Assembly (NCBI GenBank): GCA_002717515.1
Contig: PBEC01000008.1
Coordinates: 117,561-181,560 of the forward strand
Length of the DNA: 64,000 bases
From: Flavobacteriales bacterium
GTDB taxonomy: Bacteria > Bacteroidota > Bacteroidia > Flavobacteriales_C > GCA-002722245
Direction of reading: 5' to 3'
Shown piece by piece: positions 49,923 to 64,000 of this stretch; the stretch's first letter is position 1; each line of letters starts with the position of its first letter. The notes under the pieces are model-generated. The model was not told the DNA's origin. It saw only the letters and a program-made list of their open reading frames with translations, and searched no databases. A program made the position numbers and the translations under genes.

Positions 49923-52307
49923 ATGAAAAATCTTTCCTTAACCGCTCTAATTTTCGGACTATTTTTCCTCCCAAAACACATCAGCGCCCAAACTCTTACC
50001 GCCCCTGTTGCAGAGGGTGTCTACGGAGGTCAAATCCTGGATATTGAATCCTGGGAATTTGATACAGACTCTGTTTATGTGCTGATATCAACAGAAAGTC
50101 CAAACTCCATTTTTATAGGTAAAGGTTACAGAAACTCTACAAGAGAAAATTTAAGCTTTTCTGTCTTAGAAAGTGCAGGAAGTGATGATGGATACGGCTC
50201 CAATGTTGAAAACATAGAAGTTCACGAATCCAGTAACACTATTTATTTTCTTGTAAATAGCTCACTTTACAAAACAAGCATTAACTCATCTTCGGCAACT
50301 CTGGTGGATGATTTGGTAAAAACATTCATTATCCAAAGAGATACCATGTGTTTAATTAAAAATAATCTAATTGCAGGAGGAAATGACACTCTGGTATTTG
50401 GACCCATCGATGGATCAGGAAATTTTACTCCGTCAAATGGCTTTAGTCTACTCAAACAATTCACCGATCCTCCACAACTAATTATATCCCCTGTCGACAA
50501 CTCTATGCATCTGTTTGAAAGAGGTTCAAACCCACAAAGACAATATATAATCGATCCCTTCAATGCAATGAGCAATAGTTCTTCAATTGCCTCAGCAGTC
50601 AGTACAGCTCCTATTATTTCGAATGTTGAGTGGAGAACTTTTGGAATAGCAAATGATGGAACAGTTTATGTTGCCGGTCAACCACCTCTTGGTTCACCGA
50701 CAATTAGGGACAGGGCAATTGCCTGGAGTTTTGACAATGGGTTCACATGGAACGATACCCTTATGGATGGACCCGGACCAGAAGGTGGTGTTGTAGGAAA
50801 TAATTTTGTCATTGAGGATATAGGTGGAGAACGACACATCTATTGTGGTAATTTATTCCTGACCGACACATCTATTATGCATACCTGGTATAATCCTGGT
50901 ACAGAACAAATCAATGATTTAAACAGAGCAAACGACGGAAAAACTCTTCAAGACCCCATCGACCAAGACATAAAGTACCATACAACAAACATTGGTTTTG
51001 GATATTCTGTATCTGCAGGAGACAGCATTTTTGGATGGAATGAAGGTATAGATGCTGTTCAAGTAAACGACATCGATATGAGCCCGGATTTTTCAATCGG
51101 TTGGGTAGCTTCAAAATCTGGAATTCGAAAAGTAGAAAACTACAACACACCCAGTGAGTTGTGGCATACGGCTTACTTTCCAAACCTTGATGGATCTCCA
51201 TATCTATCGGTTGCGGTTGATACATTCGATAACAACATTGTTTTTGTAGGGAATCAGCGAGTTTACAAAACAACAAATGGCGGTACGGCCTCAGGATCCA
51301 GCGACGGTTGGAATGAAGTTTTCACTCCAGAAACTGGGACATATGGTTTTAATCGAATCAATACAAAATGTAATGTTATAGCAATTTCAAGACTTGACAA
51401 CAACATTATTCTAGCCGGTTTTTCTCAGGATTACACCAATAAAGGTGGAGCTTTTTACAGCTTAGATGGAGGAAATACATGGGACCAACTCTTACTCAAC
51501 ACCAGCTCTGTTGGAGAAGATTTGGATGTAAACGATATTGAACTGGTTGAAGAAGGTGGAAATGTAGTTGCTTATATTGGAGTTGAGTCGGATGTTATGA
51601 CCTCGGGAGCATATGGAATATACCGAGCAGAATTATCATCAAGTACATGGAGTGTAACACAAGAAAGTGTTTTTGGTGCAACCGACAATATCATTGATCT
51701 TGAAATGAACCCGGCTCGTGATACTCTGATTGTCCTCTACAAAGACCCAGGGTTACTCCCTGTTAATAACGTTATTTTTAAAGATATAACAACGAATACC
51801 TGGAGTTCCAATTACATCGGACCACTCTCAGATAATGGCAACGCAACCGCAATTACTGTTGGGGACGGTTACATATTTATGGCCATAGAAGAAAAAATAT
51901 ATACATGTCCATTCACTTCACCTCTAAGTTGGACTCTAGCTTATTCTTACCCTGTTGGAATTGACATTAATGTTCTTTTTTATGACGAATTGTTGGTAGG
52001 GACATCTACTGGACTTTATGCTCAAGAACTAGACTTAACAAACGTAAGTACAAACCCTAATATTGAAATAAACAAAACAATTGTGCATTACAACACTGCC
52101 TCAGGTAACATCGATGTAATTTCTGATGCTAAAATAAATGAAATAAGCCTTTACGATATTGGAGGGAAACTCATTTTAAACGAATTTCCAAATCAATCTA
52201 AATTCAGTGTAGAAGCCAATTTAACCAATGGAATTTATATTTTAAATTCTCAAAATGAGAATGGAAAAGTTAATTCTCACAAAGTTATTGTTGTAGAGAA
52301 ACGCTAA
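49923..52307 (+). CDS. Secreted beta-propeller-like T9SS type A sorted protein
   Basis: Signal peptide, sialidase/BNR-like YSLDGGNTWDQL repeats, C-terminal sorting domain. Confidence 0.75.
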   Translation: MKNLSLTALIFGLFFLPKHISAQTLTAPVAEGVYGGQILDIESWEFDTDSVYVLISTESPNSIFIGKGYRNSTRENLSFSVLESAGSDDGYGSNVENIEVHESSNTIYFLVNSSLYKTSINSSSATLVDDLVKTFIIQRDTMCLIKNNLIAGGNDTLVFGPIDGSGNFTPSNGFSLLKQFTDPPQLIISPVDNSMHLFERGSNPQRQYIIDPFNAMSNSSSIASAVSTAPIISNVEWRTFGIANDGTVYVAGQPPLGSPTIRDRAIAWSFDNGFTWNDTLMDGPGPEGGVVGNNFVIEDIGGERHIYCGNLFLTDTSIMHTWYNPGTEQINDLNRANDGKTLQDPIDQDIKYHTTNIGFGYSVSAGDSIFGWNEGIDAVQVNDIDMSPDFSIGWVASKSGIRKVENYNTPSELWHTAYFPNLDGSPYLSVAVDTFDNNIVFVGNQRVYKTTNGGTASGSSDGWNEVFTPETGTYGFNRINTKCNVIAISRLDNNIILAGFSQDYTNKGGAFYSLDGGNTWDQLLLNTSSVGEDLDVNDIELVEEGGNVVAYIGVESDVMTSGAYGIYRAELSSSTWSVTQESVFGATDNIIDLEMNPARDTLIVLYKDPGLLPVNNVIFKDITTNTWSSNYIGPLSDNGNATAITVGDGYIFMAIEEKIYTCPFTSPLSWTLAYSYPVGIDINVLFYDELLVGTSTGLYAQELDLTNVSTNPNIEINKTIVHYNTASGNIDVISDAKINEISLYDIGGKLILNEFPNQSKFSVEANLTNGIYILNSQNENGKVNSHKVIVVEKR

Positions 52308-52381
52308 TTAATTTTAATTTAAATGTAAGCAAGACTGGATTTTTTTTTGTTTCTTATAATAAATCACAAACAAAAAAAGCC

Positions 52382-52813
52382 ATGAAAACTGTATTAAAGA
52401 ATGGAATATTTGCATTTATTGGAATTGGAGTATACTTTTTAATAGCAGAACTGCTTGGATTTAGTAAAAGCACACCTTTACGTTTACTTAACTTTTTCAT
52501 TTTGGGATTCTTCGTCAACAAAACGATTGTCCATGTAAAAAAATCCAACAAAACTTTTGTTGTTCAGTTTACCCATTCGCTATTAACTTCAATATTAACG
52601 GTTTTTCTCAGCACCATAGCATTGGCTTTTTACCTCTACTTATGGAAAGGTTCTGACTACATTAACTCGTTATCTCAACCCCTATTGAATATGGGCGCGC
52701 TAAAATTAAGTATGCTTCAATTCAGTTTTGCTATTTTCACTGAAGGAATTGCTTCCGGAATTATTCTAAGTTTCGGGTTAATGCAGTTTTGGAAAAATAG
52801 GAAATTAGAGTAG
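52382..52813 (+). CDS. Four-TM hypothetical protein (DUF4199-like)
   Basis: Hydrophobic helices; topology resembles DUF4199 proteins. Confidence 0.45.
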   Translation: MKTVLKNGIFAFIGIGVYFLIAELLGFSKSTPLRLLNFFILGFFVNKTIVHVKKSNKTFVVQFTHSLLTSILTVFLSTIALAFYLYLWKGSDYINSLSQPLLNMGALKLSMLQFSFAIFTEGIASGIILSFGLMQFWKNRKLE

Positions 52814-52816
52814 TAA

Positions 52817-52848
52817 AAAAGGCAAGTTCCTTTATGAACCTGCCTTTT
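52817..52848. terminator. Bidirectional terminator
   Basis: AAAAGGCAAGTTCCTTTATGAACCTGCCTTTT between convergent genes. Confidence 0.75.
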
Positions 52849-52868
52849 GAGAAGTTATACCGTCAAAT

Positions 52869-53486
52869 CTACTTCACAGTAATTTTCCGAACAGCTTGTT
52901 GATTGCTTGACATAACTGTAACAAAATAAATACCAGGACTTAAAGCACTAATGTCTAATTTCCCTGAAGCTCCTTGAAGGTTTTGATCCAGAACAACACT
53001 TCCAAAAATGTTAACCATTTGAACGCGATCAACAGTATTATCGTTCGAAATCATTAAAACGTCTGTTGCTGGATTCGGGTAAATAGACAATCCCGAAAGA
53101 AGATCGGTTTCAGTCCCTGTTGTTGCACATGCAGCACACTGACCAAAGGTAATATCATTGCTTAAGGGATCCGTAGTCTCCCAAAATCTATTGAAATAAC
53201 CACCTTGATTTTCTATACACGGTTCATTTGTTAAGTCTTCGAAAACTCCATCAGCAACAACCTTGTACTCCATTCTATCCGTTGGCACTGGGTCGAAGGT
53301 AAAGGTCCATGAACCATCACCGTTATCAGCCGCAACAGGTCCTCCATTAGGATCCCATCCCCACCAAGGACCGGTCATCCGGACAGCGGAAGGCGATTCA
53401 TCACAAAAAGAAACAGTGATATTAAGTTGACCAAAGGCAACAGACGAAAAGAGTAAACTACATAAAATAAGCGTAAAATTTTTCAT
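52869..53486 (-). CDS. Small T9SS-sorted protein with carbohydrate-binding-like domain
   Basis: RMTGPWWGWDPNGGPVAADNGDGSWTFTFDPVP domain plus LSIYPNPATDVLMIS...GIYFVTVMSSNQQAVRKITVK sorting domain. Confidence 0.75.
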   Translation of the reverse strand: MKNFTLILCSLLFSSVAFGQLNITVSFCDESPSAVRMTGPWWGWDPNGGPVAADNGDGSWTFTFDPVPTDRMEYKVVADGVFEDLTNEPCIENQGGYFNRFWETTDPLSNDITFGQCAACATTGTETDLLSGLSIYPNPATDVLMISNDNTVDRVQMVNIFGSVVLDQNLQGASGKLDISALSPGIYFVTVMSSNQQAVRKITVK

Positions 53487-53699
53487 GGGAATAAGAGTTT
53501 GGTTTCGCTTTAATATACAATAAGTTCAAATACGATGCACAAAAAATAATCATCAAAAATTTCAATGTAACTTTCAACAAATTTTCACGAATACTAATAG
53601 ATGTAATTTTAGAAACCACTACACAAAATGAAAGAAAACTGATTCAAGTTAAGATTTATTTAATATTTGTAATAGGTATCTAATTATCAATTTAAAATT

Positions 53700-55346
53700 G
53701 TGAACATATCCAATATAGATTTTTCAATTCTAATCATATATGCCGTTACAATTTTGTCAATTGGCTTATATGTTTCAAGAACAAAAAAAGGCAAGGAAAA
53801 AAACTCAAGTGATTATTTCTTAGCCAGTAAATCCCTTCCGTGGTGGGCTATTGGAGCATCCTTAATTGCTGCTAATATTTCAGCTGAGCAATTCATTGGA
53901 ATGTCAGGTTCAGGGTTTGCAATAGGACTAGCTATTGCTTCCTATGAATTTATGGCGGCTTTAACTTTAATTATAGTAGGTAAGTATTTCCTACCTATCT
54001 TCATTAAAAAGGGGATTTACACCATACCAGAATTCTTAGAAAAACGGTACAACTCCAATGTTAAGTCTGTTCTGGCTGTTTTCTGGATATTCCTTTTTGT
54101 CTTTGTGAATTTAACATCTGTTCTTTATCTGGGAGGAACAGCACTTGATACAATTATCGGAAATGGTGATGGCGCACTTGTTTTAAATAGTGTTATTGGG
54201 TTAGGATTATTTGCGGCAGCATATTCTTTGTGGGGTGGTTTATCATCTGTTGCCTGGACAGATGTAATTCAAGTCATTTTATTAGTAATAGGAGGATTAA
54301 TCACTACAATCATAGCCTTAAACCACATTACAGAAGATGGTGGTATTTTAAATGGCCTGGAACATATTTTTGAAAAAGCTCCAGAAAAGTTTAATATGAT
54401 TCTGAACTCAGAAGACGAAGGATACTCTGACTTACCAGGAATAGCCGTGCTTGTAGGAGGTATGTGGATTGCTAACCTTTATTACTGGGGATTTAACCAA
54501 TATATTATTCAAAGGACTTTAGCCGCAAAAAGTATTGCTGAATCTCAAAAAGGAATTGCCTTTGCAGCAATACTAAAGATGATTATTCCAATAATTGTTG
54601 TTCTTCCCGGTATCATTGCTTATGTAATGTACTCGGAAAATCCAGAAACTGCCCAAGCATTTACAGATACTGATGGTTCACTCTTAAACGACAAAGCCTA
54701 TCCCTGGTTAATTTCTAGTTTTATCCCTACAGGATTAAAGGGAATCATTTTGGCTGCTCTTTCTGCAGCAATTGTTTCTTCACTCGCCTCAATGATTAAC
54801 AGTACCTCAACCATATTTACATTGGACATTTATAAACCAATGGTAAACAAAAATGCTTCAGAAAAAAACTTGGTTACCGTAGGACGATTATCTGGACTGG
54901 TCGCTTTAATCACAGCCATAATCATAGCCCCTGTGCTTGGAAACATCGATCAAGCGTTTCAATTTATACAAGAATGGACTGGCGTAGTTAGCCCGGGAAT
55001 ACTAGCCATCTTTATGCTTGGACTTTTTTGGAATAAAACAAGTGCCAGAGCAGCGATTATTGGAGCCTTATGCTCAATACCCATTGCTCTATTTTTCAAA
55101 GTTGGCCCAAAAGGATGGATTGAATCGAATCTTTTCCCCGACCTGCCTTTCATGCACCAAATGGGATTAACCTTCGTAATTACTTCACTAATAATGATTA
55201 TAATATCCTACATAAATAATGGAAAAAATAAAGACATTAAAGGAATTGAGTTGTCCAAAAAACTATTCAAAACATCCTCTGGTTTTAACATTACTTCAAT
55301 CATAATACTATTGGCTTTGATATTTATTTATACAATATTCTGGTAA
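53700..55346 (+). CDS. Sodium:solute symporter (SSS family), GTG start
   Basis: SSS motifs: SSDYFLASKSLPWWAIGASLIAANISAEQFIGMSG; GRLSGLVALITAIIIAP. Confidence 0.92.
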   Translation: MNISNIDFSILIIYAVTILSIGLYVSRTKKGKEKNSSDYFLASKSLPWWAIGASLIAANISAEQFIGMSGSGFAIGLAIASYEFMAALTLIIVGKYFLPIFIKKGIYTIPEFLEKRYNSNVKSVLAVFWIFLFVFVNLTSVLYLGGTALDTIIGNGDGALVLNSVIGLGLFAAAYSLWGGLSSVAWTDVIQVILLVIGGLITTIIALNHITEDGGILNGLEHIFEKAPEKFNMILNSEDEGYSDLPGIAVLVGGMWIANLYYWGFNQYIIQRTLAAKSIAESQKGIAFAAILKMIIPIIVVLPGIIAYVMYSENPETAQAFTDTDGSLLNDKAYPWLISSFIPTGLKGIILAALSAAIVSSLASMINSTSTIFTLDIYKPMVNKNASEKNLVTVGRLSGLVALITAIIIAPVLGNIDQAFQFIQEWTGVVSPGILAIFMLGLFWNKTSARAAIIGALCSIPIALFFKVGPKGWIESNLFPDLPFMHQMGLTFVITSLIMIIISYINNGKNKDIKGIELSKKLFKTSSGFNITSIIILLALIFIYTIFW

Positions 55347-55347
55347 A

Positions 55348-57246
55348 ATGAGATCGATAATTTGCATTCAGATTGTATTACTTTCTTTGGGATCAATAGC
55401 TCAAGAAATTAAGAATGTAAAACCATCACCTCTTCAAAATTTTAACATTAGTGGTAACTACCGATTTTATGCACAACATCGAATATTTACTGAGCCATAT
55501 ATCATCGGATACGAAAATAACGTTCCAACACAACTTGATGGAAGAGCAATATTAATTGGTGATGCGTCTCAACTTCCGGAATTAACATTAAATATCAGTG
55601 GAAGACCAAACTCAAAAACCTCTTTCGGAACCGATTTAATTGTTTGGAATCAAAATTCAGGAGATTTTGACTACTACAGGAGTTTACAATTGGGAATTAA
55701 CCTTTACGGTGATTTTTCAACAAAATACTTCGATGTATCCGTTAAAACCGGTGGTATTTTTTGGCATGAAATTACCCCTTTAACCTTTGGCTCCTTTTTT
55801 GGCTACAACAGATTCAGCGTTTTTGAAAGAAACCCATGGGATCCACAAATGAGAAACGTTGATGATCGCTATAAAAACTATCTAAAGAGTGGTTCAATTA
55901 ATCAAGATACTCGTTGGGCCAACCAGGCAATTCAAGGAATTATTTTAGACGCAAGCTTACCAATGAACATTTCCATCGATTTGATATACGGAAAAGCCCA
56001 AAACATGGGAGCCGTTTTTAATATTCCGGAGAATGACCTCAACAATCAAACTTCAGTAGCGAATATTCGATTCTACGACAATACCATACCAAACATGGTA
56101 TATGGAGGAGCAATTAGAAAAAACTTAAAAAAACACACGATTTCTCTGAACAATTACAGCGAATTATCCTACAGCGATGCTTTAGCTACAAAACGTATAA
56201 ATAACCAAATATCAACCACGGGGCTTAAATTTAATTTTTCAGAAATTGAATTTGACTTGGAAGGTGGGCTGGGAAAGTACAGTGATGAATACAATCAAGA
56301 CAGTCTTGGTTTTGGAGAATTATTATCGTTTAAAATTAATACCAGCAAAAAACTGACTTTCATTCCATTCCAAATCCACGCTTACAGAATTAGCCCTAAT
56401 GTTGTGAACAATAACTCCACCTTTATAAACACGTCAGTGAACCAGGCTCAATCTGCTGCAGCCGGTGAAAATCAACTCATTGGTGCAAATGGAGTATTAC
56501 AACAAACTGGAAGCGGTATAGTTCCAATGGGGCAAATGGCCAACAACAGGCAAGCCGTAAATATTAGTACCGATATTAAACTGATGCCCTTAACACTAAC
56601 CCTTGGAAACAGCATTGCAAAAGAAATCAATAGAATTGGTAATAAAATCAGTTATACCCATTTAAACGGTCTAACCCTATCGCGATTTTGGAGATGGTCA
56701 TTTCCATCAAATGTTGGTCCTTACAACAAAAAGTCCGTTTTGTATCGATCTGTTTTTGAAACGGTAAACATAACCGAAACAGATAACGATGGAAAACTTC
56801 CCTATGACAAGTATTTTAATACCATGGAGGCACAACTCAAATATAAATTTAATCTACTCAAAAAACCTTGGTACGTTTTTTACCTGGGCTCTTATAACTC
56901 CGTTCAAAACAATTTTTCCTTAGTTACAGTATTTAATGAAAAAGCTTTTTTGAGAGTTTATAACCATCAATTTGAAAACTATTACCACATATCTCCAAAA
57001 ATAATTCTGGCGCAATATTTAGGTGTTGAACGAATTGTTGCCAACTACTCTACTCAGGTTAACATTGAAACTCAGAGACCAATTAATCAAGAGGGGATAG
57101 GAATTGGATTAGGAATAGATTATATGATGGCAAAAAACACAGGACTTTACATCAGGCATAGATATTTCACATTTGAAGATAAGAGTTTTCCATTGGATAA
57201 GTTTTCTGGACATGAAACAACACTTGAAATAAAAGTTACATTTTGA
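55348..57246 (+). CDS. Putative outer-membrane beta-barrel protein of unknown family
   Basis: Signal peptide, beta-rich, ends in phenylalanine (ETTLEIKVTF). Confidence 0.6.
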   Translation: MRSIICIQIVLLSLGSIAQEIKNVKPSPLQNFNISGNYRFYAQHRIFTEPYIIGYENNVPTQLDGRAILIGDASQLPELTLNISGRPNSKTSFGTDLIVWNQNSGDFDYYRSLQLGINLYGDFSTKYFDVSVKTGGIFWHEITPLTFGSFFGYNRFSVFERNPWDPQMRNVDDRYKNYLKSGSINQDTRWANQAIQGIILDASLPMNISIDLIYGKAQNMGAVFNIPENDLNNQTSVANIRFYDNTIPNMVYGGAIRKNLKKHTISLNNYSELSYSDALATKRINNQISTTGLKFNFSEIEFDLEGGLGKYSDEYNQDSLGFGELLSFKINTSKKLTFIPFQIHAYRISPNVVNNNSTFINTSVNQAQSAAAGENQLIGANGVLQQTGSGIVPMGQMANNRQAVNISTDIKLMPLTLTLGNSIAKEINRIGNKISYTHLNGLTLSRFWRWSFPSNVGPYNKKSVLYRSVFETVNITETDNDGKLPYDKYFNTMEAQLKYKFNLLKKPWYVFYLGSYNSVQNNFSLVTVFNEKAFLRVYNHQFENYYHISPKIILAQYLGVERIVANYSTQVNIETQRPINQEGIGIGLGIDYMMAKNTGLYIRHRYFTFEDKSFPLDKFSGHETTLEIKVTF

Positions 57247-58961
57247 TGAAAAATAAAATTCTAACCATATTGACCCTCTTTTTCGTTTTTCAACTCAAGT
57301 CGCAAAATGAAAAGTTTCAAATTAACGGTGCAGCTCGTTCCTATTTATTCTCTAATGAACTTGAAATCGACAATTCAATCGACAGCATCACACCTAAAAA
57401 ATCAAATTACGGTCATAATTTGTTGGACTTAGGAATCAGTATTTTTCCAAACAACCAAACTGAAGTTATCGGAATATTTCGAATTCGAAATGAATTGGGA
57501 GGTTTTTGGGGCGGAGGTGTAACCTTCAATGTGCGACAATTAACCTTAAAAGGAGTTGCCAACAACATCGTTCGATATGAAGTTGGTGACATCGATTTAA
57601 AAATGACACCCTACACTCTCTTTAATAATCAAGAAGAAGGCGTCATTAATGAATCCGAGGCATTTAAAGTAAGAAGAGAAATCCTTCACTACGATTTGTT
57701 TTATCAAGAAAATCATTGGAGAATGCAAGGAGCAAAAGTCGATTTCAACGTGCTTACCAATTCAACTTTTAAAAAAATAAACTTCAAAGGATACTTAACC
57801 CGACAAAGAGCTACCGATGGCCTAAGCTTACCCGAAAGACTGTTTGGTGGAGGGAGTATTAATTTCATCAACAGCCCCTCACTGAACTTTCAAATCAATA
57901 GTTCAAACATGTTTGACCTAACAAAAACACTCGGTAACGATAGCACCAGATTTTCAAACTCGGTAATTACTTCTAATTTTCAATGGCAGGGAGCAAACAG
58001 AAAAAAAATCGTTTTTAAATTATACGGTGAAGGAGGTATATCCAATACAAGATATATGAATTATGACGATCAAAATGCTCCTGAACTATTATCCGATTGG
58101 TTTTACGATATTACATCCTCTACCCTTTTCAAAAAGAAAAAAATTCGATTTAAACTTGGAGCAAAAGACGTTGGAAAAGATTTTCGATCTCCTGGAGCTC
58201 AAACCAAAAGAATCGACTATTCAAAATCCCCCGGATTATACCAACAATTCACAAACAACTTTATTGGACGAGAAGTAAGTTTCTCGGACATAATAGATGG
58301 AAATGCAGAAGCTTCATTTAAAATTTCCGAAACCTTAATGGCATACAATGCAGCATACAGTAATACCAACCCATATGGAGCAGCAACGCCCAACAGAAGA
58401 GGGCTATACATAAATTTAGAAAAATTAGATTCAGCGGATGTAAAAAAAGGATATTTTGAATGTTCATTTTTACAAGAATCGGTAGGTTCAGGAACAACAA
58501 AAAGAAAAAGCTTTATTCTAACTCGAATAGGGACGGACATCCTTATAAACAAGCATTTCAATTGGAAAAAAACAACAAAAATAAATTTTGGTTTTCAAAG
58601 TGAATTCACATTCAGGAGAGGTGAAATCTTTGAAAAAATCAATTTACAAAGCAACTTTATCGATTTAGGTTTTAGCTATGAATTCATTCCGAAAATTAGT
58701 TTTCTTTTAGGAACAAAACTATGGATAGCAAAAGGGAATGAAAATTTAATCGTTCGCGATGAATTCAATAATGTAATTGATTTTGAGGCCATTAACATCA
58801 ATTTTAGTGAGAAAGTCATCGCAACAGGATTTAAACTGGATTTCGATGAAAAAAATACGTTAACATTACAATACCAAAGCTTTAACATAAACGATCAGGT
58901 TGAAAACAGAATTGATTACGGAATATCCGAATTCATAATACTTTACAGTTTATTCTTTTAA
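57246..58961 (+). CDS. Second putative outer-membrane beta-barrel protein of unknown family
   Basis: Signal peptide, beta-rich, ends FIILYSLFF; ATG overlaps the upstream TGA (TGATG). Confidence 0.6.
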   Translation: MKNKILTILTLFFVFQLKSQNEKFQINGAARSYLFSNELEIDNSIDSITPKKSNYGHNLLDLGISIFPNNQTEVIGIFRIRNELGGFWGGGVTFNVRQLTLKGVANNIVRYEVGDIDLKMTPYTLFNNQEEGVINESEAFKVRREILHYDLFYQENHWRMQGAKVDFNVLTNSTFKKINFKGYLTRQRATDGLSLPERLFGGGSINFINSPSLNFQINSSNMFDLTKTLGNDSTRFSNSVITSNFQWQGANRKKIVFKLYGEGGISNTRYMNYDDQNAPELLSDWFYDITSSTLFKKKKIRFKLGAKDVGKDFRSPGAQTKRIDYSKSPGLYQQFTNNFIGREVSFSDIIDGNAEASFKISETLMAYNAAYSNTNPYGAATPNRRGLYINLEKLDSADVKKGYFECSFLQESVGSGTTKRKSFILTRIGTDILINKHFNWKKTTKINFGFQSEFTFRRGEIFEKINLQSNFIDLGFSYEFIPKISFLLGTKLWIAKGNENLIVRDEFNNVIDFEAININFSEKVIATGFKLDFDEKNTLTLQYQSFNINDQVENRIDYGISEFIILYSLFF

Positions 58962-58962
58962 C

Positions 58963-59970
58963 ATGAAAAAAATAATATACACAGCGCTACTAATTTTACT
59001 GGCAGTGTCCTGCAGAAAAAATGATGAAAACACCATCGAGGGACCAAGCTTAAATGATTTGTACGGACCTTTTGACATACTTTCCGAATTGGATATTCAA
59101 AACAGCATAAACTTTTCCTCGGGCGAGAACATTTCATTTGATATGGAATTATCAAAAAGAACCAATTGGGAAATTGAAATTACCGGAGGAACCACAGGAG
59201 CAAAAAGGGTAATATCGGGCAGTGACCGAATACTATCATCGGATAATGCATTATGGGAAGGAGGAGCTGACGAATTCCCTTCATTTGGGTTGGAAACAGC
59301 CTACATTACAGTTCGTTTTCCGAACGAAGAAAACTCTCAAGTTATAAGCGACTCTGTTACCATAACCGGATTGAAAAAAGACAAAGGAATTCTAATTACA
59401 AGTTTTGAAAACGGATTTGAAAGTCATTGGGAATTGTTCAACCAAACCACAGTGAGTGGAGAAATAATCTGCTCAGATGATAAGGCCGCAAAGGGAAATT
59501 GTTATTACAAATGGGATGGACTCGTAAGCTGGGACTGGGCCATAGGATATGTAAAATTAAACGCTCCCGATTCGGGGTTTAATTTACCGGCTAATGCAAA
59601 TACCTTATTTTTTAATATGGGAGTAAAAATGATCAGCAACACAGGACCTGCCCCCAATGGAAGTTTTATTCAAATTTTATTTGAAGAAGATGAAAACGGA
59701 GATGGAATATTCAATGAAAACACGGAAGACGGATACATTTATGAATATTGGTATGAAAAAGATGAATGGAGCCTTCTGAGTATAAAATATGGAGACTTAA
59801 AATACGATTCTGAAGGAAATCCTGTACAAGTAAATGGAAATGGTTTACCTGAACCCACCAAACTAATTGGAATGAGAATATTCTTTTTGGCCAACAAAGA
59901 TTCCGGAATACGATCAGAAGCATTTGTTGACCACGTTATTTTTACAGAAAATGAAACTTATAAACCTTGA
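58963..59970 (+). CDS. Lipoprotein with putative galactose-binding-like domain
   Basis: Lipobox LLAVSCRKN; beta-sandwich-like C-terminal half (TSFENGFESHWELFNQT...AFVDHVIF). Confidence 0.6.
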   Translation: MKKIIYTALLILLAVSCRKNDENTIEGPSLNDLYGPFDILSELDIQNSINFSSGENISFDMELSKRTNWEIEITGGTTGAKRVISGSDRILSSDNALWEGGADEFPSFGLETAYITVRFPNEENSQVISDSVTITGLKKDKGILITSFENGFESHWELFNQTTVSGEIICSDDKAAKGNCYYKWDGLVSWDWAIGYVKLNAPDSGFNLPANANTLFFNMGVKMISNTGPAPNGSFIQILFEEDENGDGIFNENTEDGYIYEYWYEKDEWSLLSIKYGDLKYDSEGNPVQVNGNGLPEPTKLIGMRIFFLANKDSGIRSEAFVDHVIFTENETYKP

Positions 59971-61130
59971 ATAGATTAACCTCCATATTACTCTTTGTTT
60001 TTTTGATACAATCCTGTCAAATAGAAATGGGAAAAGTTCAACTGTACGATGAATACGAACAGCCACAACAACAAGAAAAAATTAAATCGGTAGTATATTC
60101 CGATGCAGAGGGAACCATGTGGAATTCATTATTCAATTGTGGTGAATTTGAAATCAGTAAAGAAACCTATTACAAAGGAAAAGCATCGATTAAAATTTCA
60201 TGGGATAAAAATATGGGTTGCGAATGGATTGGTTTTGGTAACAGCTTTAACAACTGGCAGCCTGTAAATATTAAAAAACATGTTGATAATAAAGCACTTA
60301 GCTTTTTTGTAAGAACCCACCATGGAGAAGTCAATTCCATACCAATTGTAGCATCCCTCGAAGATTTTTCAGGAGGAGGAAGCTACCTGTTCATTGATTG
60401 TAAAAAATATCTGAAAGGGATTTCCATAGATACATCCTGGAAACAAGTAATTGTTCCGCTTTGGGATTTCCCCATGGGAAATGAAGTTGAAAACGATGAC
60501 ATTGATGCTTCTTCAGTAAAACAATTAAAATTTCAATTGGAAGGAGCAGGGAAATTTTTCATTGATGAAATTACACTAATAGAATTTTCAAAAAATCAAT
60601 ACAAAAACATGCTCATGGAAGTAGAAAACATGAAACCTAAAGGGGCAAAAAAACAACAAATTTACAAAGAGGGAAACCTAATTAAATCCGCATGGGGAAC
60701 GGGCAAAAAACTCTGTCATTCCCTTGAAGAAACTTCTGACAGTATCGGCGAGACTCATATAAAATGGGAATTTGAAACTAAAAACTGTAATTGGGCACAA
60801 TGGGGAATAAATTGGAACGACTGGTATCAAATAAATTTCAGAGGAATTACAGAATTCAGCACATTAGAATTCAAAATAAAAACAGACTCTACGGCTGAAT
60901 TTTACATTTCAATTGAGGATTTTAAAGGTCACAAATCTTCCAAACTCATTACACAGCAACAAATAAAAAATCACTCCCAATGGACCCTCGTAAAAATCCC
61001 ACTTAAAGATTTTAAATTAAGAGAAAATAATTTTGTTTTAGACCAAATCAAACAAATTACATTTAAAGGCAAAACCTCCGGAAAAGTATTACTGGACGAT
61101 ATCAAAATCAATGAAAATGAAACACATTAA
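59967..61130 (+). CDS. Lipoprotein with two tandem carbohydrate-binding-like (ExoP/CBM11-like beta-sandwich) modules, TTG start
   Basis: Lipobox FLIQSCQ; repeated CEWIGFGNSFNNWQPVNI / CNWAQWGINWNDWYQINF and FFIDEITLIE / VLLDDIKINE. Confidence 0.65.
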   Translation: MNRLTSILLFVFLIQSCQIEMGKVQLYDEYEQPQQQEKIKSVVYSDAEGTMWNSLFNCGEFEISKETYYKGKASIKISWDKNMGCEWIGFGNSFNNWQPVNIKKHVDNKALSFFVRTHHGEVNSIPIVASLEDFSGGGSYLFIDCKKYLKGISIDTSWKQVIVPLWDFPMGNEVENDDIDASSVKQLKFQLEGAGKFFIDEITLIEFSKNQYKNMLMEVENMKPKGAKKQQIYKEGNLIKSAWGTGKKLCHSLEETSDSIGETHIKWEFETKNCNWAQWGINWNDWYQINFRGITEFSTLEFKIKTDSTAEFYISIEDFKGHKSSKLITQQQIKNHSQWTLVKIPLKDFKLRENNFVLDQIKQITFKGKTSGKVLLDDIKINENETH

Positions 61131-63420
61131 ACACTTAATATCCCTCCTATTGATTTTACTTATAGCTGAAGCTTGTAGTGAAAAAACCAACCATCAAAAA
61201 GAAGGAACCGAAAAAATATCAAAAACAGACTCGATTATTGATAGTCTGATTAATTCTATGTCCATCGAACAAAAAATAGGACAAATGACACAAATAAATA
61301 TTGATGTAATTTCCAAAGGAGAAGTCTACAAGTTAAAATCTCCACATGAAATTGACTCATTAAAGTTGGATGTTGCAGTTAATAAATACTATGTAGGTTC
61401 AGTTTTAAATGCAGCAGGCTATCCATTTTCAAGACAACATTGGGAGAAAATCATAACAACCATTCAAAAAAAGGCAACATCTCAAGGAAGTAAAATACCC
61501 ATTATATATGGAATAGATGCTATTCATGGAGCAAACTACACTGTTGGAGCAACCTTATTCCCCCAGCAAATTGCACTCGCCGCAACATGGAATCCCAATG
61601 TCGTCGAAAATGCAGCATCAATAACAGCCTATGACGTTTCGGCATCAGGAATACCCTGGAACTTTTCACCCGTTCTCGATTTGGCTCGTCAACCTTTATG
61701 GGGACGCTTTTACGAAACATTCGGCGAAGATGTCTACCTCGCAAAAACTATGGGAAAAGCCTTTGTAAATGGATATCAAGGAAACGATGCAAAACATCCT
61801 CATAAAGTAGCCGCATGCTTAAAACACTATGTAGGCTACAGTTTTCCTCTCTCTGGAAAGGACCGAACTCCTGCATGGATTCCAAATAGAGTTTTAAAGG
61901 AATATTTTTTACCCACCTTTAAAACCGCAGTTGAAGAAGGAGCCATGAGTATTATGGTAAACTCAGGTGAAGTAAATGGAATTCCTGTTCACGCCAGCCA
62001 CGAATTACTTACAAAAGTTTTAAGAGATGAACTCGGATTTAAAGGAGTTGTTTTAACCGACTGGGAAGACATAATCAAACTTTACAAAGATCATCATATA
62101 GCATCCAACATGAAAGAAGCCGTTCATTTGGCCATAAACGCAGGAATTGACATGAGTATGACACCAAATGATTATTCCTTCAATGATGCACTAATTGAAT
62201 TGGTAAAAGAAGGAAAAATCAAAGAAACAAGATTGGACGAATCCGTAAGAAGAATCTTAATAATGAAACAAAAGCTTGGATTATTTGAAACACCATTTCC
62301 AAACTTTAATGAATATCCAGACTTTGGCTCTGAAAAACACATCAGTCAAAGTTTAAATGCAGCCAAGGAAGCCATAACACTTGTAAAAAATGAAAGTATA
62401 CTTCCATTAAGTATCGAAAAAAAGATTTTGGTAACCGGACCCGGTGCAAATTCATTAAACTATATGAATGGAGGATGGACACACACTTGGCAAGGAGATG
62501 AAACGATATACAACACACCAGGAAAAAATACCATACAAGAATCTTTAAAATTACTTTCGCCTAATGTAACCTACATGGAAGGAAGCAGTTTAGATTCAAA
62601 CATCAATACTGCTGAAACATTAAAAGAAGCTGAAAATCATGATGTAGTAATCATTTGCCTTGCAGAAGACCCTGCAGCAGAAGGCCCTGCAGACATCAAT
62701 TCACTTGATTTTCCAAAAGCGCAACAAAACCTCGTTCGTGAACTGCACAAAGCCGGAAAACCCATCGTTGTAGTAACTACAACAGCACGTCCAAGAATAC
62801 TACGGGAAATAGAACCCTTCATGAATGCAATATTAATTGGATACCTTCCTGGAGATGAAGGAGGAACAGCAATAGCTGAAACAATTTTTGGACTGAACAA
62901 TCCTTCGGGAAAACTTCCTTTTACCTACCCAAAATATCAAGGACTAAATATAACATACGACCATAAGCACACTGAAAAAACAAATCGTTTTTTAGGACAA
63001 ACATCCTCCCTAAGCGACTACGATGCAAAATTCAAAGGAACTGTATATCAATGGAATTTTGGTTACGGCTTGAGCTATTCAAGTTTTGAGTATTCAGAAC
63101 TTAAACTGGATAAAAAGTCGTACGCCAAATCAGATACCATTAAAATAGAAGTTACCCTAACAAATAATTCGGACATAGAGGGAAGTGAAGTCGTTCAAGC
63201 ATTTTGTTCGGACCTTGTTGCAAGTATAACTCCCAGTGTAAAACGACTGAGAAGTTTTAAAAAAATCAAACTTAAACCGAATGAAAATAAACGTGTAAAA
63301 TTAAAAATACCCGTAAAAGAGCTTGCCTTTGTAGGCATAGAAAATAAATGGATTGTGGAGTCGGGAGACTTCACCCTTAGCGTTGGTGATTTAATGACTA
63401 ATTTTTCAGTGAATGAATAA
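61111..63420 (+). CDS. Glycoside hydrolase family 3 (BglX-like), lipoprotein
   Basis: Lipobox IAEACSE; SPVLDLARQPLWGRFYETFGEDVYL, KHYVGYS, nucleophile region VVLTDWEDI. Confidence 0.95.
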   Translation: MKMKHIKHLISLLLILLIAEACSEKTNHQKEGTEKISKTDSIIDSLINSMSIEQKIGQMTQINIDVISKGEVYKLKSPHEIDSLKLDVAVNKYYVGSVLNAAGYPFSRQHWEKIITTIQKKATSQGSKIPIIYGIDAIHGANYTVGATLFPQQIALAATWNPNVVENAASITAYDVSASGIPWNFSPVLDLARQPLWGRFYETFGEDVYLAKTMGKAFVNGYQGNDAKHPHKVAACLKHYVGYSFPLSGKDRTPAWIPNRVLKEYFLPTFKTAVEEGAMSIMVNSGEVNGIPVHASHELLTKVLRDELGFKGVVLTDWEDIIKLYKDHHIASNMKEAVHLAINAGIDMSMTPNDYSFNDALIELVKEGKIKETRLDESVRRILIMKQKLGLFETPFPNFNEYPDFGSEKHISQSLNAAKEAITLVKNESILPLSIEKKILVTGPGANSLNYMNGGWTHTWQGDETIYNTPGKNTIQESLKLLSPNVTYMEGSSLDSNINTAETLKEAENHDVVIICLAEDPAAEGPADINSLDFPKAQQNLVRELHKAGKPIVVVTTTARPRILREIEPFMNAILIGYLPGDEGGTAIAETIFGLNNPSGKLPFTYPKYQGLNITYDHKHTEKTNRFLGQTSSLSDYDAKFKGTVYQWNFGYGLSYSSFEYSELKLDKKSYAKSDTIKIEVTLTNNSDIEGSEVVQAFCSDLVASITPSVKRLRSFKKIKLKPNENKRVKLKIPVKELAFVGIENKWIVESGDFTLSVGDLMTNFSVNE

Positions 63421-63541
63421 ATTTCAATGGATTTAACCTTCTTTGATCCGACGCTTTATATTTTGAATTTAAAGGAATAAATGGTATATTTTATTAGTTC
63501 TCTGATGTTCCATTTCTCCCTTATTTAAACCTACAGTAGCC

Positions 63542-64000
63542 ATGAAACGAAGTAAAATTTCACTGTTAATATCCCTCATTTTATTTTTTACATACACTAA
63601 AGCACAGCAGTTGTATGATGATTTTGAAGGAACTCCAGAAATTACCTATGGTTTCATAAATGGAGTTTTTGAAAACAATACAACAAACACAAATCAGTCA
63701 GGAATAAACAGCTCCGCTACTTGTGCAAAATACACAAGAAACGTAGGTGTTCCCTATGACGTAATTATAATGGACCCCAGCTCCCCCATGAACGACCTGT
63801 CGGATTATGTAAGCGGTTCAAAAAAAATCACCATGATGGTAAAAACCGACGTTTCTGTAACTGTTCAAATCACCCTTGAGAACAGCTTAAGTGCACAACC
63901 CGGTAATTACCCAACAGGACGACACAGCGAATATAAAACCACCACCTCAGGTACAAACGACTGGGAACTCCTAACTTTTAATTTTGACCAGCAACCCGAT
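63542..64000 (+). CDS. Secreted protein, N-terminal part (truncated by window edge); glycan-locus associated
   Basis: ATG 63542, MKRSKISLLISLILFFTYTKAQQLYDDFEGTPEITYGFINGVFENN... open to window end. Confidence 0.65.
   Translation, partial: MKRSKISLLISLILFFTYTKAQQLYDDFEGTPEITYGFINGVFENNTTNTNQSGINSSATCAKYTRNVGVPYDVIIMDPSSPMNDLSDYVSGSKKITMMVKTDVSVTVQITLENSLSAQPGNYPTGRHSEYKTTTSGTNDWELLTFNFDQQPD

Follow-up and report, generated by a model that had tools for sequence, protein, structure and literature searches.

The genes that follow position 53700 of the window, as we call the whole 64,000-nt stretch analysed here (G000:C8:117561-181560, in a genome of 2.64 Mb, 26 contigs and 92% completeness), probably form a SusC/SusD-independent operon for the utilisation of beta-1,3-glucan such as laminarin, in which the outer-membrane barrels BAR1 and BAR2 act as the oligosaccharide conduit. 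We put the probability of this reading at roughly three in four. A SusCD-independent glycan system that has diversified by substrate is represented in the window by its version for beta-1,3-glucan. As far as we could find, this system has so far been reported for cellulose only, in Cytophaga and Sporocytophaga.

The plus-strand run opens with an SSS sodium/sugar symporter with a GTG start (53700..55346; PF00474, 9e-67), followed by BAR1 (55348..57246), BAR2 (57243..58961), the lipoproteins LIP1 (58963..59970) and LIP2 (59967..61130) and a GH3 lipoprotein (61111..63420; N domain 3e-72, C domain 7e-40). The junctions between these six genes are +1, -4, +1, -4 and -20 nt, and the GH3 gene is separated by 121 nt from the gene at 63542. 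Apart from a sub-threshold lipobox LIP1 had no Pfam match, and its profile gave just weak, unconvincing matches to phospholipase C among the PDB sequences; LIP2 contains two CBM30/CBM11-like stretches (CBM30, 1.2e-15). The original prediction had described this run from the reading frames, with junctions of 1 nt or overlapping, a last gap of about 120 nt, two barrels ending in Phe and the SSS, GH3, T9SS and CBM-like families, and all of this is borne out at the coordinates given here. It had further taken the run as seven genes stopping at 64 kb with a truncated secreted protein, which has to be corrected. The last protein (63542..64000 in the window) is complete, with 438 aa ending at window-equivalent 64858 and a T9SS sorting tail (Por_Secre_tail, 1.7e-9). 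The same strand continues outside the window after 10 nt with a GH16 lipoprotein (window-equivalent 64869-65678; Pfam GH16, 1.7e-23) and after a further 16 nt with a GH158-like enzyme (window-equivalent 65695-66963; 329 bits to PDB 9oro), before an unrelated DUF6428 protein.

A small T9SS cargo is encoded divergently on the minus strand (52869..53486; Por_Secre_tail, 1.4e-15). Its position is kept in the same-genus relatives L044, L046 and L047, and it is possibly a glycan-binding surface protein. Directly upstream of the locus, positions 49923-52307 encode a 794-aa probable T9SS cargo whose sorting-tail match lies below the Pfam cut-off. No RNA elements were detected at the gathering threshold in 52300-64000, and promoter and terminator scans gave matches no more frequent than in shuffled sequence. 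At three of the barrel loci described below (L050:5311-8250, L052:12033-14957 and L053:4132-7056), an adjoining gene encodes a protein of about 975 aa that may be a sensor-regulator of the system.

The substrate is read from the enzymes. GH16 and GH158 as endo-glucanases and GH3 as exo-glucosidase together make up, as judged from sequence, a set for beta-1,3-glucan degradation, hence they indicate a beta-1,3-glucan such as laminarin, in line with the beta-glucan suggested originally. The GH3 lipoprotein is probably an exo-beta-glucosidase; its best NCBIfam resemblance, below the cut-off, is to exo-beta-1,3/1,6-glucosidase. The T9SS-secreted protein at 63542 is probably a beta-sandwich glycan-binding protein.

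For the SSS protein the original prediction had proposed oligosaccharide import, and here our result differs. The protein is homologous over nearly its full length to the Vibrio sodium/galactose-glucose cotransporter vSGLT (637 bits to PDB 2xq2; see also 3dh4), and the residues Q, E, N, K and Q, which we take to be the sugar-site residues of vSGLT, are all conserved in the alignment with 2xq2. It should therefore carry a free monosaccharide, glucose or galactose, and not an oligosaccharide, so hydrolysis would have to be finished outside the cytoplasm. Unlike vSGLT the protein is operon-linked to outer-membrane glycan genes, and it is one part and not the whole of the system.

BAR1 and BAR2 had no match in Pfam, NCBIfam or the PDB sequences, profile searches of the PDB were unconvincing, and no Pfam plug or TonB-barrel domain was detected in either of them; no known barrel family could thus be assigned by sequence. 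AlphaFold models were computed from 21 homologues for BAR1 and 20 for BAR2 (pLDDT 73 and 82, pTM 0.76 and 0.80). Each model has 22 strands with a length of 8 residues or more and lacks a plug domain. Foldseek searches of the PDB, which had been proposed as a check on the barrels, returned porins, maltoporin, chitoporin, the alginate exporter AlgE and TonB-receptor barrels for both proteins, and also pilus ushers for BAR2, with low TM-scores of about 0.2-0.45. As the confidence of the models is moderate and the TM-scores are low, the secure assignment of these predicted structures goes as far as outer-membrane barrel and no closer. BAR1 and BAR2 resemble maltoporin, chitoporin and AlgE as plug-less outer-membrane beta-barrels that would handle oligo- or polysaccharide, but differ from them in the 22 predicted strands, in being encoded by two paired genes and in the lack of sequence similarity, apart from the low TM-scores. 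Known porins have 16-18 strands. As the profile of BAR1 matches that of BAR2 (hhalign 98%), the two may be ancient paralogues, with the caveat that all barrels resemble each other somewhat.

The closest described counterpart is the chu_1276-1280 cluster of Cytophaga hutchinsonii, which a 2025 paper presents as an atypical PUL for cellulose without SusD (PMC12016534). In that cluster CHU_1276 is predicted to be a barrel and CHU_1278 a beta-sandwich protein, CHU_1277 is a protein of the outer membrane, CHU_1279 (375 aa) is an SGBP-B-like protein that binds cellulose, and CHU_1280 is an endoglucanase, assigned elsewhere to GH9 (PMC6247017); PMC12016534 also reports the cluster in C. aurantiaca and Sporocytophaga, the two places where it looked. 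We located it among the genomes of the order to which the L114 genome belongs, where BAR1 is present in 26 of 391. In one of these, G642, gene four of the cluster codes for a protein of exactly 375 aa that has W89, F92, F180, Y253, F256 and F343, the six residues given in PMC12016534, and this cluster is therefore that of C. hutchinsonii.

Compared with these proteins, BAR1 of the window is 25.6% identical to the CHU_1276 homologue over 702 columns (184 bits; profile E 6e-162), BAR2 31.8% identical to CHU_1277 (231 bits) and LIP1 22% identical to CHU_1278 (46 bits; profile E 3e-63). LIP2 occupies the same fourth place as CHU_1279, carries a CBM30-like domain and gave no direct match but a weak profile link (hhalign 81%), so by sequence the two are at best remotely related. 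Both loci share the core order BAR1, BAR2, LIP1, a CBM-bearing lipoprotein and then a glycanase, the first three being directly homologous, and both are without SusD. The window has GH3, GH16 and GH158 where C. hutchinsonii has GH9, hence it is a variant and not the cellulose system itself, and its operon adds the vSGLT-like symporter and T9SS proteins. The idea that this was an undescribed system accordingly stands in part: the barrels belong to the families of CHU_1276 and CHU_1277 from a published cellulose cluster, but no report of a beta-1,3-glucan version, nor of chitin or alpha-glucan versions, was found in a literature search that covered few subscription papers.

The original prediction had also held that SusC and SusD are not recognisable here, that the two barrels may take their place, and that a SusCD pair just downstream would speak against this. 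SusD (PF07980) had no match in the whole genome, in which a positive control was found, and SusC (TIGR04056) gave partial matches, all below the cut-off. By that model the twelve TonB-receptor barrels encoded elsewhere in the genome do not count as SusC-type. No SusC/SusD pair was found in the approximately 28 kb beyond 64 kb, and together with the genome-wide results this sets aside a pair hidden downstream of the window. Incomplete assembly is an unlikely reason for the absence of SusD, as none of ten genomes of the window's family contains it, five of them being 99-100% complete; BAR1 is present in all ten. Marine Flavobacteriia have canonical laminarin PULs with SusC/SusD, of which a GH3 and GH16 variant is an example (PMC6794258), and these likewise combine GH16 and GH3 with surface lipoproteins, whereas the window locus has neither SusC nor SusD but two plug-less barrels in their stead. 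Glycanases accompany the conserved barrel pair, and together with the missing SusC and SusD this supports the original view of a glycan locus free of SusC/SusD, with the two barrels in their position.

The absence of SusD was rejected as proof of replacement. Two thirds of the sampled relatives are without it, and there is no association with the barrel pair in either direction: among 149 relatives SusD is present in 7 of the 18 genomes with the pair and in 41 of the 131 without it. Outside the window's family the pair and SusD coexist in 7 of 8 relatives, and in another count in 25 of 50 pair-bearing genomes. Given this frequent coexistence, the missing SusD is on its own no evidence that the barrels have replaced it. 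When 138 stretches around the barrel pair were searched by BLAST with four SusCD pairs, a single SusD-like gene (L095:179-1693) was found but SusC was not, and a TonB receptor lies close to the pair in two loci (L206 and L213).

The conservation of the gene order, which had been named as a further check, was found to be strict. BAR2 follows BAR1 directly in all 97 cases among the first 100 BAR1 genes where the contig continues, and over all stretches in 132 of 132 checkable loci; LIP1 is the third gene in 116 of the 118 loci where it is visible, the totals of 132 and 118 contain some duplicates, as certain loci were retrieved in two ways. An earlier set held 96 distinct pairs after removal of duplicates. 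At L150 a BAR2 without a called BAR1 was seen in a high-GC genome (G310) where the simple ORF caller took wrong frames, and the genome search places BAR1 there. In trees of 73 pairs, 39 of 42 supported BAR1 splits were also present in the BAR2 tree and none was contradicted by a supported split, and the distances of BAR1 and BAR2 were correlated with r 0.87, where 500 permutations gave 0.11 at most.

The pair recurs beside different enzymes. A second copy in the window's own genome (L043:2953-16187; C23:22953-36187) comprises GH18, BAR1, BAR2, two lipoproteins, NagB, a NagB-PIG-L fusion, a T9SS protein and an MFS protein, with an adjoining DUF5009 gene and no SusCD, and is probably a locus for chitin/GlcNAc acquisition. 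This GH18 version was found again in most same-family genomes looked at. A GH9 version is seen in L060, L062, L164 and L165, and a GH97 version with the order BAR1-BAR2-LIP1 in L061 (8706-17050) and L163 (4179-12550), suggesting a SusCD-free version for alpha-glucan. In the BAR1 tree the label of the neighbouring enzyme changes 15 times as compared with 35.6 in shuffles; the labels were taken from neighbouring genes and some loci were left unlabelled. The BAR1 copies group as GH158/GH16, GH18, GH9 and GH97 and not by genome. G008 is represented once in every one of the four groups, and each of its copies has the same version in another genome as its nearest relative. As the beta-1,3-glucan version was used as query, the sample is biased towards it. 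Two further contexts were seen: a long-branch pair that has an MGH1/GH63/trehalase-like enzyme and two genes of the LIP1 type beside it (L217:213-9570), possibly a further substrate class, and a barrel-pair clade of its own in which the enzymes are GH2C-like or GH5-like (L212:9176-16656 and L215:9176-16466).

Plug-less, porin-like folds would suit unspecific porins whose genes merely happen to lie in a laminarin CAZyme cluster of the ordinary kind. The order BAR1-BAR2-LIP1 is, however, unbroken over very divergent sequences, the trees are congruent, and the barrel versions follow the type of enzyme, which makes such a coincidence highly improbable.

One locus (L214:3942-15810) places BAR1-BAR2 among a UDP-glucose dehydrogenase, an epimerase, an acyltransferase and a 1333-aa GT2 and GH26-like protein, and looks like a context of exopolysaccharide synthesis, hence the pair may export glycan there. 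It might then be asked if the pair is in general a conduit for glycan export in exopolysaccharide secretion, the adjoining hydrolases trimming or recycling the product, and AlgE among the Foldseek matches would agree with this. The window operon, on the contrary, has no glycan synthase but contains a vSGLT-like symporter and degradative enzymes, and the genetics of C. hutchinsonii lead to cellulose use. We therefore regard export as a very remote explanation of the pair.

Uptake remains the preferred reading, and it is the C. hutchinsonii genetics together with the enzyme context that make a paired oligosaccharide conduit its best form. Both CHU_1276 and CHU_1277 are reported to be essential if cellulose is to be used (PMC5891637), and PMC5553014 gives CHU_1277 a part in cellooligosaccharide assimilation; a cited title ties an outer-membrane protein, CHU_1276 by the text of PMC12016534, to glucose uptake. 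PMC5553014 also reports that cell-associated beta-glucosidase activity is lost or reduced in CHU_1276 and CHU_1277 mutants, so the proteins may have a part in presenting enzymes. The pair could in that case be a scaffold for assembly or presentation that places lipoproteins and glycosidases at the surface, sugar entering by general porins or other TonB receptors. Such receptors are present elsewhere in the genome, the barrels always have lipoprotein genes beside them, and the presence of CHU_1279 counts more than its binding activity (PMC12016534). A scaffold does not sit well with barrels that are themselves diversified by substrate and have sugar-porin-like folds, nor with the link of CHU_1276 to glucose uptake, and we consider it unlikely, if less so than the two alternatives above.

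In the conduit mechanism that we infer, GH16 and possibly GH158 at the surface would cut the glucan and hold it together with the T9SS-secreted protein, and LIP1 and LIP2 would bind it at the cell surface, LIP1 probably being the surface glycan-binding partner of the barrels. The plug-less BAR1 and BAR2, presumably in a complex and independent of TonB, would jointly form the conduit that lets oligosaccharides inwards through the outer membrane. GH3, and perhaps GH158, would then release glucose, which the vSGLT-like symporter would import with sodium as the driving force.

The Bacteroidota are leading degraders of glycans in the sea, in soil and in the gut, and SusC/SusD is regarded as their defining importer. 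Surveys of PULs go by SusCD loci, and a report on one Crocinitomicaceae isolate describes it as lacking PULs (PMC12313589). If the pair is a parallel importer for several substrates, genomes of such kind may be wrongly scored as non-degraders. The finding would connect the way in which Cytophaga uses cellulose without SusCD, so far unexplained, with soluble laminarin, where transport is directly testable and whose pathway matters for ocean carbon. More broadly, BAR1-BAR2-LIP1 could represent a second general paradigm of outer-membrane glycan translocation in the phylum, a plug-less, TonB-independent pair of 22-strand barrels with its own surface lipoprotein, diversified for beta-1,3-glucan, chitin, cellulose, alpha-glucan and others, perhaps also for export, missed by PUL finders that seek SusCD, and the main glycan gate in SusD-less lineages; on this wider proposal our judgement is evenly balanced. 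With enzymes for chitin, for cellulose and for sugars of the starch type found next to it in other bacteria, the barrel pair may be a second general route for the uptake of complex sugars in the Bacteroidota.
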